From: Streptomyces sp. NBC_00536
Lineage (GTDB): Bacteria > Actinomycetota > Actinomycetes > Streptomycetales > Streptomycetaceae
Assembly: GCF_036346295.1 (NCBI RefSeq)
Contig: NZ_CP107819.1
Location: forward strand, 1,612,001 to 1,676,000
Reading direction: 5' to 3'
Length of the DNA stretch: 64,000 bases
The position numbers and the translations under genes were made by a program. This document shows, piece after piece, positions 14,608 through 18,787 of this stretch. Under the pieces are notes generated by a model that searched no databases, was not told the origin of the DNA, and saw nothing but the letters and a program-made list of their open reading frames with translations. Within the stretch, counting starts at the first letter, position 1. Every line of letters begins with the position of its first letter.

Positions 14608-14736
14608 TATTTCCCTGTCCCATGACCATCGGGGGGCGACCCTCGCTAGGCTCTTTCAGGCTCGGCGGGGCGGGGCAGAACACAGGTGGCGCACCACAGG
14701 TGGCGGGACGCCGGGCACGGCACAAAGGGCACAGCG

Positions 14737-16404
14737 ATGGGGGCAGCGGTGGCGGACGACGGTTTCGACTTCAGGCCGGGGGCGCAGATCCCCCTCCAGG
14801 GCGGCGGCGGCCAGACCGCGGCGACCAACGCGCTGGCCTCCGCCGCGTACCGCGACGGCAAGCCGGACGAGATACTCAAAGCCAACAACGAGCACTACGA
14901 ATCCACCGTGAAGAAGGGAAAGCTCTCCCTCTTCGAGCCCAATTTCGGCGAGGCCTTCTGCCGGGCCGTCGAGGCCCGCATGCTCGGCGCGGGCCGCAAA
15001 CCCCTGATCCAGTCCTTCGGCGCCGACCCGCAGACCGTCGTCGAGCACTGCCTCGCCGCCACGCGCCTGCGCAAGGAGCGCGACCGCAAGCTCCGGCTGA
15101 TCATGCTGGTCTGCGGACTGGTCTTCCTTCCCGGACTCCTGTTGTGGCTGGGCCTGTTCCAGCTGCGCAAGACCCTCGCCAAGGACGCGGGCAAGCGCGC
15201 CTCCTGGATGGGCACCGCCCTGCTCGTCGGCATCGCGCTGGTGGTGGCCGTACTGATGTTCCGGCTGCCCCTCACCGGCTTCTGGGGCCTCTACCTGCGC
15301 GCGATGGTGATCGCGCCCGCCGCGGGCTGGCTGCTGGCCTCCCGCATCGCCGAGGCCGCCGCCAAGGACATGCGCGCCCGCTGGGACGGCCTGCTCGGCG
15401 GCGCCTCCGTCGGCGCCAAGATCCCCGAGGCGGTCCCCGGCAACCCGGACGAGACCGCCCGCGAGGACCTGCGCCACCAGCTGGCGAAACTCACCGCCGA
15501 GGGCCGCAGCAACTCCGTCTTCTACGCCGGCCCCAAGGGCATCCTCGGCATGGGCACCCGGTGGGGCAGCTGGCAGCTGGCCGAGGACCTCGCCCCGAAG
15601 ACCGCGGGCACCGAGATCCACCCCTTCCGCAGCTGGGACGTGATCCGCGCGATCCAGGACCAGCTGCGCATGCTGGAACGCGGCCCCCTGCACACCGGCG
15701 GCTTCCCGCCGCCCTCCATCACCCACTGGATCGTCACCCCGGTCGGCGAGGGCGCCAAGGAGGTGGCCCGCCCCTCCGGCGCGGACGTGGACACCTTCCT
15801 CATCAAGCAGCACGAGATCACCCGGATCTGCAACGAGCAGCAGTTCGGCGCGGGCAACCGGCACTACCTCGGGGTCCAGTGGCCGCTGTGGGACGGCCAG
15901 TTGGTGATCACGATGATGGTCACCGTGACCGTGCTCTACAAGACCCTGCGCGTGGACGTCACCGCCCACTCGCTGGGCCCGGTGCACGGCCTGTTCACCA
16001 CCAAGTCCGCGCCGAAGACCACCGAGGTCGCCAAGACCGTACGGTTCTGGGAGACCGTGGAACGCACCCACGCCCTCGTGGACGCCTCCGAGGTGGTGCG
16101 CCTCGCCGTCCGCGCCCCCTTCACCTGGTACCCGCCGCTGCTCGACTTCCTGGGCGGCAAGCTGGTGCTCCCCGAGCCGTTCGGCGTCCGCCACGTGTGG
16201 GCCGGTTCGATGTGGCGGCACCGCTTCATGGCCGACGACGCGATGCGCACGGCCACCCCGGTGCTGCGGGCCGTGCACGCGGCCGCCATGCGCGTGCTGG
16301 ACGAGAACGGCGTCGACACGGAGCGCTTCGCCAACCGCTCGATGATCGTCAGCGGCATGGTCCAGGACGCCTCGCCGCGCAAGGCCGACGCCTACGACGC
16401 GTAA
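14737..16404 (+). CDS. Large conserved membrane protein of unknown function
   Basis: A 555-residue protein that I cannot place in a named family. The ATG at 14737 follows AAAGGG at a good distance; an in-frame GTG lies 12 bases later. The N-terminal ~105 residues are soluble and charged, then three or four membrane helices occupy about residues 117-205 (LIMLVCGLVFLPGLLLWLG, then LLVGIALVVAVLMF). A long soluble part follows (GILGMGTRWGSWQLAEDL, and SITHWIVTPVGEGAKE), with another hydrophobic stretch near residue 390 (LVITMMVTVTVLYKTL). There are no catalytic motifs I recognise. It sits between the EF-G-like gene and helR. Confidence 0.8.
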   Translation: MGAAVADDGFDFRPGAQIPLQGGGGQTAATNALASAAYRDGKPDEILKANNEHYESTVKKGKLSLFEPNFGEAFCRAVEARMLGAGRKPLIQSFGADPQTVVEHCLAATRLRKERDRKLRLIMLVCGLVFLPGLLLWLGLFQLRKTLAKDAGKRASWMGTALLVGIALVVAVLMFRLPLTGFWGLYLRAMVIAPAAGWLLASRIAEAAAKDMRARWDGLLGGASVGAKIPEAVPGNPDETAREDLRHQLAKLTAEGRSNSVFYAGPKGILGMGTRWGSWQLAEDLAPKTAGTEIHPFRSWDVIRAIQDQLRMLERGPLHTGGFPPPSITHWIVTPVGEGAKEVARPSGADVDTFLIKQHEITRICNEQQFGAGNRHYLGVQWPLWDGQLVITMMVTVTVLYKTLRVDVTAHSLGPVHGLFTTKSAPKTTEVAKTVRFWETVERTHALVDASEVVRLAVRAPFTWYPPLLDFLGGKLVLPEPFGVRHVWAGSMWRHRFMADDAMRTATPVLRAVHAAAMRVLDENGVDTERFANRSMIVSGMVQDASPRKADAYDA

Positions 16405-16465
16405 CTCCCGTAGGCCCGTGGGCCCGTAGGCCCGGAAAACAGGAAGGGCCCCGGAAAACAGGAAA

Positions 16466-16492
16466 GGCAAGGAGGGAAAAGCTCTCCTTGCC
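16466..16492 (+). terminator. Stem-loop downstream of the large membrane protein gene
   Basis: Arms GGCAAGGAG and CTCCTTGCC (9 bp) around a 9-base loop, 62 bases after the stop at 16404. It is preceded by short direct copies of GGAAAACAGGAA and a triplicated GTAGGCCCG-like string. It should insulate helR from upstream transcription. Confidence 0.55.
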
Positions 16493-16513
16493 ACTCCCAA
16501 CTTATAGCGCACG

Positions 16514-16536
16514 GGGGGTCTTGCGGCAAGGCCCCC
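16514..16536 (+). promoter_or_regulatory. Palindrome resembling the rifamycin-associated element (RAE)
   Basis: Arms GGGGGTCTTGC and GCAAGGCCCCC flank a single central G; 10 of 11 positions pair. The core CTTGCGGCAAG is what I remember as the heart of the 19-bp RAE found before rifamycin-inducible genes (rph, rgt, helR) in actinomycetes. It ends 58 bases before the helR GTG. A TTGCGG hexamer (16521-16526) inside the element and CAGAAT (16546-16551) are separated by 19 bases and could be the -35 and -10 of the helR promoter. The palindrome is seen; the identity is from memory and the function is inferred. Confidence 0.8.
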
Positions 16537-16594
16537 GCCCTGGGGCAGAATCGCGGACCGAGGCCAGATCCTGCCGAATTGGGAGATTCACCAC

Positions 16595-18787
16595 GTGCGT
16601 CTGCTTTCGCCCCTGTCCACCTCCGCGTTCGACCTGCCCGCCGCCCTCGACCCCAAGGCCGACCCGGCGCTGACCGACGGCGACGAGAGGCACTTCGCCG
16701 ACCTCTCGGCCAGCCTGGAACAGACGATCGCCGAGCTGTCCGACCAGCTCGCGGTCACGCGCAAGGCACCCGGCGGCATCGGCCGCGGAGCCATGGACCG
16801 GGACGCGGAGATCCACCGCCTGACCGCCCGCCTGCGCACCCTGCGCCGCTTCGGCCTGGACCTGTGCCTGGGTCACATCGTCCCCGCGGACGGTTCCGGG
16901 CCCGTCTACGTCGGACGTCTCGGCCTCACCGATGCCACCGGGCGCCGGCTGCTCCTCGACTGGCGCTCCCCCGCGGCCGAGCCGTTCTTCGCGGCCACCC
17001 ACGGCAACCCGATGGGGCTGGCGAGCCGCCGCCGCTACCGCTGGACCCGCGGCCGGATCAGCGACTACTGGGACGAGGTGTTCACCGCCGACGGCCTCGA
17101 AGGGCGCGCCGCCCTCGACGACCAGTCCGCCTTCATCGCCAGCCTCGGCAGCAACCGCTCGGCCCGCATGCGCGACGTGCTCGCCACCATCCAGGCCGAC
17201 CAGGACGAGATCATCCGGGCCGGATCCCGCGGCGCCCTCGTCGTCGACGGCGGCCCGGGCACGGGCAAGACCGTCGTCGCCCTGCACCGCTCCGCCTACC
17301 TGCTCTACTCCGACCCCCGCCTCGGGCACCGTCGGGGCGGGGTCCTGTTCGTCGGTCCGCACCAGCCCTACCTGTCCTACGTCGCCGACGTCCTGCCCAG
17401 CCTCGGCGAGGAGGGCGTACGGACCTGCACCCTGCGCGACCTCGTCGCCGAGGGAGCCGCGGCGGTGGCCGAGACCGACCCGGAGGTGGCCCGGCTGAAG
17501 GCATCCGCGGAGCTGGTGAAGGCGATCGAACCGGCCGTCCGCCTCTATGAGGAGCCGCCCACCGAGGGCATGACGGTGTCGACCCACTGGTCCGACCTCT
17601 GGCTGAGCGCCGACGACTGGGCGGCCGCCTTCGAGGCGGTCGAGCCCGGCACCCCGCACAACGAGGCCCGTGAGCAGATCCTGGAGGAGCTGCTGACCCT
17701 CCTGATGGACAAGGACGACAGCGAGGCCGCCCCCCACCTGGTCCGGCGCTCGCTCCTCCAGGACCAGGACCTGATCCGCACCCTCCACCGTGCCTGGCCG
17801 ATGCTCGACGCGGCCGAGCTGGTCGCGGACCTGTGGTCGGTGCCCGCGTACCTGCGCAAGTGCGCGCCGTGGCTCGCCCCCGAGGACGTACGCAGGCTGC
17901 GGCGCCCGGACGGCCAGGCCTGGACCGTGTCCGACCTGCCCTTCCTCGACGCGGCGCGGCAGCGGCTCGGTGACCCGGAGGCCTCCCGCCGCAAGCGCCG
18001 CAACGAAGCGGCCGTCGCCGCCGAACGCGCGCGCCGGGCCGACGCCATCGACAGCCTGCTGCAGAACACCGTGATCGACGAGAGCGAGGGCGCGCTCGGC
18101 ATGCTGCACGGACGCGACCTCCAGGACACCCTGATCGACGACAGTGCGCTGGACGGCGCCGCGTCCGATCCGCTCGCCGGACCGTTCGCGCACGTCGTCG
18201 TGGACGAGGCCCAGGAACTGACCGACGCGGAATGGCAGATGCTGCTGCTGCGCTGCCCGTCCCGCAGCTTCACCATCGTCGGGGACCGCGCCCAGGCCCG
18301 GCACGGGTTCACGGAGTCCTGGGGAGAGCGGCTGGAGCGGGCCGGGCTCGACCGGATCACCGTGGCGTCCCTGAGCGTCAACTACCGGACACCGGAAGAG
18401 GTCATGGCGCAGGCCGAACCGGCCATCCGGGCCGCGCTCCCCGACGCCAACGTGCCGACGTCCATCCGCAGCAGCGGCATCCCCGTCGTCCACGGACCGG
18501 TCACGGACCTGGACGCCGTCCTCGACGGCTGGCTCGCCGAGCACGCCGAGGGCACCGCGTGCGTCATCGGCGCGGGCGGAGCCGGCCTCGCCGCGCGGCA
18601 GGAGACCGCCCGCGTCCGGTCGCTCACCCCGGAACTGTCGAAGGGCCTCGAATTCGACCTGGTCGTCCTCATCGACCCGGACTCCTTCGGAGGGGGCATC
18701 GAAGGAGCCGTCGACCGCTATGTCGCGATGACCCGCGCGACCCGGCAGCTCGTCGTCCTGACGAGCGCCGGACGATCGGAGGGCTAG
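16595..18787 (+). CDS. helR: RNA polymerase recycling motor ATPase, HelD/HelR family (rifamycin resistance)
   Basis: HelR-type proteins enter RNA polymerase, release stalled complexes and, in Streptomyces venezuelae, dislodge rifamycins and confer resistance. The protein has 730 residues with a GTG start preceded by GGGAG. Residues about 28-90 form a charged helical arm expected to enter the secondary channel. A UvrD-like ATPase core follows: Walker A GGPGTGKT (about 219-226), an inserted helical region (about 290-500), Walker B VVVDEAQEL (about 533-541), GDRAQARHGF, and the C-terminal motor motif ELSKGLEFDLVVL (about 676-688). It lacks the 2A/2B features of true repair helicases. The RAE-like palindrome upstream supports the HelR assignment over housekeeping HelD. 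Confidence 0.9.
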   Translation: MRLLSPLSTSAFDLPAALDPKADPALTDGDERHFADLSASLEQTIAELSDQLAVTRKAPGGIGRGAMDRDAEIHRLTARLRTLRRFGLDLCLGHIVPADGSGPVYVGRLGLTDATGRRLLLDWRSPAAEPFFAATHGNPMGLASRRRYRWTRGRISDYWDEVFTADGLEGRAALDDQSAFIASLGSNRSARMRDVLATIQADQDEIIRAGSRGALVVDGGPGTGKTVVALHRSAYLLYSDPRLGHRRGGVLFVGPHQPYLSYVADVLPSLGEEGVRTCTLRDLVAEGAAAVAETDPEVARLKASAELVKAIEPAVRLYEEPPTEGMTVSTHWSDLWLSADDWAAAFEAVEPGTPHNEAREQILEELLTLLMDKDDSEAAPHLVRRSLLQDQDLIRTLHRAWPMLDAAELVADLWSVPAYLRKCAPWLAPEDVRRLRRPDGQAWTVSDLPFLDAARQRLGDPEASRRKRRNEAAVAAERARRADAIDSLLQNTVIDESEGALGMLHGRDLQDTLIDDSALDGAASDPLAGPFAHVVVDEAQELTDAEWQMLLLRCPSRSFTIVGDRAQARHGFTESWGERLERAGLDRITVASLSVNYRTPEEVMAQAEPAIRAALPDANVPTSIRSSGIPVVHGPVTDLDAVLDGWLAEHAEGTACVIGAGGAGLAARQETARVRSLTPELSKGLEFDLVVLIDPDSFGGGIEGAVDRYVAMTRATRQLVVLTSAGRSEG

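Follow-up and report, generated by a model that had tools for sequence, protein, structure and literature searches.

An RAE upstream of helR in Streptomyces sp. NBC_00536 and the predicted mirror-promoter module around it

The helR locus and its palindrome

The window analyzed here is a single 64-kb stretch (64,000 nucleotides) of the Streptomyces sp. NBC_00536 genome. It carries helR, preceded by a palindrome and a set of predicted promoter and hairpin features, listed by position in the window:

16452 to 16465, minus strand: T-rich tail after the hairpin, resembling an intrinsic terminator (from sequence and from A-rich column statistics before the left arm)
16466 to 16492, minus strand: hairpin near the predicted antisense start (about +1), arms GGCAAGGAG / CUCCUUGCC (from folding and arm pairing)
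16499 to 16504, minus strand: predicted antisense -10, TAAGTT, at mirror offset 22 in 114/116 copies; TATAAG, in a 17-bp register, is also readable at 16501 to 16506
16514 to 16536, no strand: RAE palindrome GGGGGTCTTGCGGCAAGGCCCCC, center at 16525; the published 19-bp size corresponds to 16516 to 16534
16521 to 16526, plus strand: predicted sense -35, TTGCGG, inside the RAE, with a 19-bp spacer to the conserved -10
16524 to 16529, minus strand: predicted antisense -35, TTGCCG, from the palindrome on the minus strand and the mirror geometry; overlaps the sense -35
16546 to 16551, plus strand: predicted sense -10, CAGAAT, with A+22 and T+26 in 115/116 copies; start expected near 16556 to 16558
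16558 to 16585, plus strand: 5' UTR block of partial conservation, with a ribosome-binding-like GGGAG at its end (16581 to 16585)
16595 to 18787, plus strand: helR, 730 aa, GTG start, class II HelD / HelR motor ATPase

The first-pass annotation had called the downstream gene a HelR-type ATPase, and its product indeed scores 1244.5 bits against the NCBIfam model NF041254 (motor_HelR; cut-off 750). Proteins of the HelR family free RNA polymerase from rifamycins. Among solved structures the best match is to the chain of M. smegmatis HelD (PDB 6yxu; 340 bits, residues 33-722), which belongs to the same protein family, but the window protein falls in motor_HelR and not in HelD_MYCSM, the NCBIfam model against which it reaches 380 bits, far under the cut-off of 1051. 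The 6yxu alignment spans the region ahead of the HVVVDEAQEL motif, where the primary-channel loop would lie. In class II HelD proteins this loop reaches the rifamycin pocket. One rpoB was found in the genome. Its rifampicin region has what we take to be the sensitive form of the sequence, and the polymerase is thus expected to be drug-sensitive. The 572-aa ORF at 14686-16404 (plus strand), just upstream of the module, has no Pfam or NCBIfam match. An Rfam search of the stretch gave four matches at E <= 5, all far under the gathering scores. Equivalents of the 5' UTR block occur at other loci with a consensus near GGCCGAAGCCAGGACCTGCGGAAATGGGAG, and the block is repeated in part in L034 and L149.

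The first-pass annotation noted the palindrome without its surrounding module, and was correct as to its sequence, coordinates and spacing. GGGGGTCTTGCGGCAAGGCCCCC is a near-perfect 23-bp palindrome with 10/11 complementary arm pairs (the exception is T16519 vs G16531), and the GTG start at 16595 follows after a 58-base gap (16537-16594). It is unique in the window at up to three mismatches, the second listed match being its own reverse complement, and its chance expectation there is 0 (0/100 dinucleotide shuffles). The 11-base core is weak evidence on its own, because 1.13 occurrences are expected per window with one mismatch allowed. The exact core occurs five times in the genome, twice (L001, L004) without the module described below. 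The conserved RAE positions are all present: against GGG-n-CTTGC-n-GCAAG-n-CCC, which we take to be the RAE consensus, 16516-16534 scores 19/19 (three positions free), and the runner-up within the window 15/19.

A whole-genome search with a profile of the module described below returned three full copies and one degenerate copy. Each full copy is directly upstream of a rifamycin-resistance gene. The first is the window's own, before helR; it matches the module profile (R1) at E 8e-25, a value that is not independent since this site is one of the 97 profile rows, R1 having been built from 97/116 copies with this genome's three included. The second precedes a rifampin monooxygenase (rox; NF033145, 838 bits, cut-off 800). 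The third, on contig C2 (267,650 bases), precedes an Rgt-like glycosyltransferase (NF000354, 595 bits, below the cut-off of 800). The genes for which RAEs have been published include, in the accounts available to us, helR, rox and rgt. The degenerate copy, L165 (G000:C1:8193278-8193344, minus strand; E 6e-9, core CTTCCGGCAAG), covers model positions 53-119 only. It precedes a second Rgt-like gene and has the sense half but no antisense half, making it a natural comparison for what the antisense half does.

By our own reading of eight matches, the genome has five HelD-type genes. No RAE-like site was found at the other four loci, where the best score was 14-15/19 (three free positions) vs 19 here. 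In this it resembles S. venezuelae, which also has five helD genes, one of them RAE-bearing and inducible (PMC8655204, available text). The palindrome is likewise comparable to the actinomycete RAE, a 19-bp palindrome before helR in S. venezuelae (SVEN_6029) and M. abscessus (MAB_3189c) (PMC8655204 and PMC10719064, in the portions available). As in the published RAE (PMC10719064, same portion), the element overlaps a downstream sense -35, here that of the putative promoter TTGCGG-19-CAGAAT, predicted from sequence. The identification as an RAE, already put forward in the first-pass annotation, holds on three grounds: the sequence, its place before a HelR-family gene, and its recurrence before rox- and rgt-type rifamycin-inactivation genes. 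The evidence supports 16514-16536 as a genuine RAE that would control helR, and it is fair to expect from related loci that the RAE-helR locus is rifamycin-inducible in this strain. From its relatives S. venezuelae and M. abscessus (PMC10719064, PMC8655204, as available) we also infer that the strain senses and resists rifamycins.

A module family with mirror-image hexamers

The RAE is the center of a conserved module of about 105 bp, which, with its antisense half, comes on top of the palindrome first noted. The pattern used to fetch copies did not include the flanks and fixed most RAE columns. It gave at least 152 physical sites, 149 with flanks. The profile score admitted 118 of these and L119 was a manual addition, making 119; with three near-duplicates removed, 116 non-redundant copies remained. 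Site orientation and score used the flanks, so these counts are not blind to them. Thirty of the 149 sites were dropped, among them L068 (archaeal), which has an rph-like match, and L111, from an isolate of Bradyrhizobium macuxiense, where a strongly diverged module precedes a rox homologue.

All 116 copies have a resistance homologue downstream, assigned by best tblastn score as rox (45), helR (43), rgt (12), rph (10) or arr (6). L140 was scored as helR, yet a full rgt stands first. At L140 and L035 a full-length rgt match stands between the RAE and a helR homologue, an order that suggests an rgt-helR operon. At L149 and L025 the rgt match before helR is short (68 and 59 residues) and possibly a remnant.

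The core with arms, GGNCTTGCGGCAAGNCC, is found in 102/121 same-genus genomes, and the reversed control pattern in 12/121 (our own count). The module profile matches 157/197 genomes of the order at E <= 1e-6 and 63/346 genomes of the phylum at E <= 0.01, several of the latter matches being weak and possibly due to chance. The 116 copies come from Actinomycetota (79), from this genome and same-genus genomes (32; 3 and 29, respectively), and from Chloroflexota bins (L151, L125), Gemmatimonadota (the Gemmatimonadaceae bins L070 and L072) and an uncultured Xanthomonadaceae (L146), these last five being uncultured or binned and perhaps mis-binned. The copies outside Actinomycetota, including L111, which is not one of the 116, precede rox, rph or arr homologues. 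Similar sites also occur in 37 plasmid records (28 from Streptomyces), and no module match was found in phages.

Two -10-like hexamers are mirror-symmetric about the RAE center, each at offset 22 (116 copies). On the sense side, +21 to +26 read CAGAAT (C 92, A 99, G 68, A 93, A 90 and T 99%), 19 bp from TTGCnG. The mirror positions on the antisense side read TAnGTT (T 98, A 98, any base, G 73, T 88 and T 98%). When each offset d was scanned for an A there together with a T at d+4, d = 22 was occupied in 115/116 copies on the sense side and 114/116 on the antisense side; across the other values of d from 12 to 59 the maximum was 27 on the sense side (at d = 43) and 67 on the antisense side (at d = 28). 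The antisense exceptions, L119 and L134, are shifted by one base, their hexamers being ACGTTG and ACCTTG. Both are among the 19 copies left out of an alignment of 97/116, in which A-26, T-22, A-21, A+22 and T+26 alone are invariant beyond the RAE. RAE columns that were free in the search pattern are also kept, with G-9 in 114, C+9 in 110 and G-10 in 104 of the 116. The profile found 21 further loci in other genera, where the key bases are kept in 18-20/21; the profile contains those columns, and the core search at these loci required TTG and CAA. In L182, L186, L188 and L200 (other Actinomycetota) the core is CTTGCTTCAAG or CTTGCGTCAAG, which breaks the inner palindrome and keeps TTG on both strands; this is not a fair test, given that the search required TTG and CAA.

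Covariation between the RAE arms is weak. The observed value was reached by 0/2000 shuffles at +-12, 15/2000 at +-6 and 40/2000 at +-11, in a test that ignores kinship and with the core fixed by the search; at +-10 the same test gave no covariation.

The conserved columns suggest that the RAE core holds the -35 elements of two predicted promoters, set back to back. CTTGCnGCAAG holds TTGCnG on both strands, and the two promoters would thus share one place and be mutually exclusive. A sigma-70 scan (16-18 bp spacers) of 16380-16640 called no promoter, sense or antisense, and a terminator scan of the same region called none; the 19-bp spacer and the 9-nt loop fall outside those rules. The published RAE differs in that two sense promoters are reported and the available text of PMC10719064 describes no antisense half, which is predicted here. 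In M. smegmatis helD the RAE lies over the -35 of the second of these promoters, and deleting the upstream half of the RAE abolished induction (PMC10719064, citing Hurst-Hess 2022; available text). The mycobacterial promoter 1, which starts about 20 bp upstream of the RAE (PMC10719064, available text), has no conserved equivalent in the 116 copies. We found no mention of an antisense unit at the RAE in the available portions of the literature, including PMC10194278, PMC7283461, PMC13246000 and PMC3765725; the founding RAE/HelR papers (Spanogiannopoulos 2014, Surette 2022, Hurst-Hess 2022) entered this comparison at second hand. The RAE-helR locus is a further member of its family, and what appears new to us is the predicted mirror-promoter anatomy of that family.

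The antisense hairpin and its tail

The minus strand of 16450-16492 folds at -18.1 kcal/mol (z -2.9), and on the same measure this genome's other two full copies have z -1.5 (rox) and z -2.5 (rgt). Across the 116 copies, antisense positions +1 to +30 fold with a mean z of -3.3 vs 0.0 on the sense side. The T fraction after the hairpin is 0.34 overall and 0.47 in the window's genus, with 0.19 on the sense side. By order, the hairpin z is -4.7 in Kitasatosporales, -3.8 in Micromonosporales and -1.2 in Mycobacteriales, and the T tail is found mainly in Kitasatosporales (0.40) and is weak in Mycobacteriales (0.24). Out of nine arm positions, an average of 7.2 match in the arm's own partner, 6.25 in the arms of other sites, 5.8 in shuffles and 5.1 in a downstream mirror control. 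At the 75/116 sites with at least seven arm matches, the mean A fraction before the left arm is 0.54 vs 0.18 further up. From these features we predict that the antisense half is a self-terminating antisense unit.

The upstream neighbors, assigned roughly from GC3, lie within 600 bp in antisense orientation at 45 and in sense orientation at 39 of the 116 sites; 20 are farther away and 12 flanks are too short. Hairpins with 8-9 matches occur at 20/39 sense-neighbor sites and 21/45 antisense-neighbor sites. Since the neighbors run both ways, the antisense element is not just a promoter serving some divergent neighbor, a candidate that we reject on this rough assignment.

The RAE could instead be an operator only, bound by a rifamycin-responsive regulator, with TCAACnTATAG as part of the operator or a sense-strand element and the hairpin as an ordinary terminator for the gene upstream. 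A palindrome of 19 bp whose arms are G/C does resemble a dimer site, the promoter scan called nothing where we read an antisense promoter from the letters, and an unknown factor is considered in the available text of PMC10719064 and PMC12802891. We regard this account as unlikely. Both key -10 bases are found at the exact mirror offset of 22, the hairpin is constant in position with its T-rich side facing the antisense direction, and the 8-9-match hairpins are alike in frequency beside sense and antisense neighbors.

How the module could switch helR

We think it probable that an RAE-centered two-promoter module controls helR, with a rifamycin-driven shift to sense firing. In such a module TTGCnG on each strand of the RAE core would serve as overlapping -35s for two mirror-image promoters, and a single polymerase could occupy it at any time. 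The antisense -10, TAnnTT, would lead directly into the hairpin and yield no more than a tiny antisense RNA. Without the drug, antisense firing and/or a regulator bound to the RAE would keep sense output low. Rifamycin would shift the module to sense firing, and HelR would then free the polymerase from the drug. Several observations stand against this two-promoter account: the scans of 16380-16640 called neither a promoter nor a terminator, the G/C arms are unexplained by -35 function, the hairpin and T tail are weak beyond Streptomyces and relatives, and the fold of this genome's rox copy reaches a z of -1.5 only.

Mutual exclusion with drug-arrested polymerase does not suffice as the full mechanism. 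We modeled competition at a single site with a fraction of the polymerase arrested by the drug, using 20,000 random rate sets of our own choosing. With or without a trapped antisense complex, 0/20,000 sets gave induction, and the largest ratio was below 1.0. Promoter competition alone thus cannot induce, and an unlinked rifamycin-responsive regulator, or another step, would still be needed. We lean towards the former, i.e., an unlinked rifamycin-responsive protein on the RAE that makes the switch. A route without such a protein, e.g., a polymerase event outside the model, is somewhat unlikely. Linked reading frames at 83 loci were clustered, and inspection of the 25 largest clusters by eye showed no recurrent regulator; many of the frames are wrong and weakly similar regulators would be missed, and one ABC-transporter-like cluster occurs in 6/83 loci. 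That a few copies lie outside Actinomycetota lowers the odds of a regulator confined to one lineage. The literature, as far as it was available, names no rifamycin-binding regulator for the RAE and describes RAE sensing as unresolved (PMC10719064, 2022; PMC12802891, 2026, where the actinobacterial mechanism is to be elucidated).

Alternatively, the polymerase itself could be the sensor: a strong antisense promoter would suppress the sense one, and arrest by rifamycin would relieve it. A C at -12 makes a weak -10, and the predicted sense -10 has C there in 92% of copies, the antisense one T in 98%. The presence of the module in several phyla, together with the lack of a regulator among the 25 clusters, also favors this account. 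Its precedent is the dual-promoter rifampicin alarm at B. subtilis helD/pps (PMC12802891, available text), in which a strong antisense promoter faces a sense promoter that escapes slowly, the two converging from starts 39 bp apart. As there, the module here would place an antisense promoter with a 19-bp spacer before a HelD-family gene (B. subtilis antisense promoters share 19-bp spacers, and one target is a HelD gene), and the sense promoter would be the weaker. Unlike the B. subtilis pair, however, the promoters predicted here diverge and overlap at their -35s; the sequence predicts no facing sense/antisense pair with starts about 39 bp apart. Shortening the B. subtilis spacing by 17 bp abolished regulation (PMC12802891, available text). 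The failure of all 20,000 rate sets weighs against a polymerase sensor as well, as does the lack of conservation between -150 and -69 (no column above 0.08 bits) that could mark an upstream sense promoter. We consider this account quite unlikely.

A chance palindrome with no tie to rifamycins is a negligible prospect, for although the 11-base core turns up about once per window at one mismatch and 30/149 core-pattern sites lack the module, the full module is present here (the profile E of 8e-25 not being independent), 116/116 copies precede resistance homologues, this genome has a three-copy regulon, and 0/100 shuffles gave the palindrome.

Returning to the two-promoter module, we tentatively extend it to the whole family: every RAE may be a mirror promoter, whose antisense promoter, with its tiny RNA terminated at once, would be integral to rifamycin sensing and kept across Actinomycetota and in the few copies of other phyla. 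If so, loss of the key antisense -10 bases would alter the basal level or the inducibility of the sense promoter. The mirror geometry points to two key bases per side that can be changed singly in a reporter, which makes the open RAE question testable. The family has also gained a profile of about 105 bp, whose 116 source copies all precede rifamycin-resistance homologues, and the search for a mechanism is narrowed, in that two-promoter competition alone cannot explain induction. The mirror-promoter anatomy may be a clue to how rifamycin is sensed.
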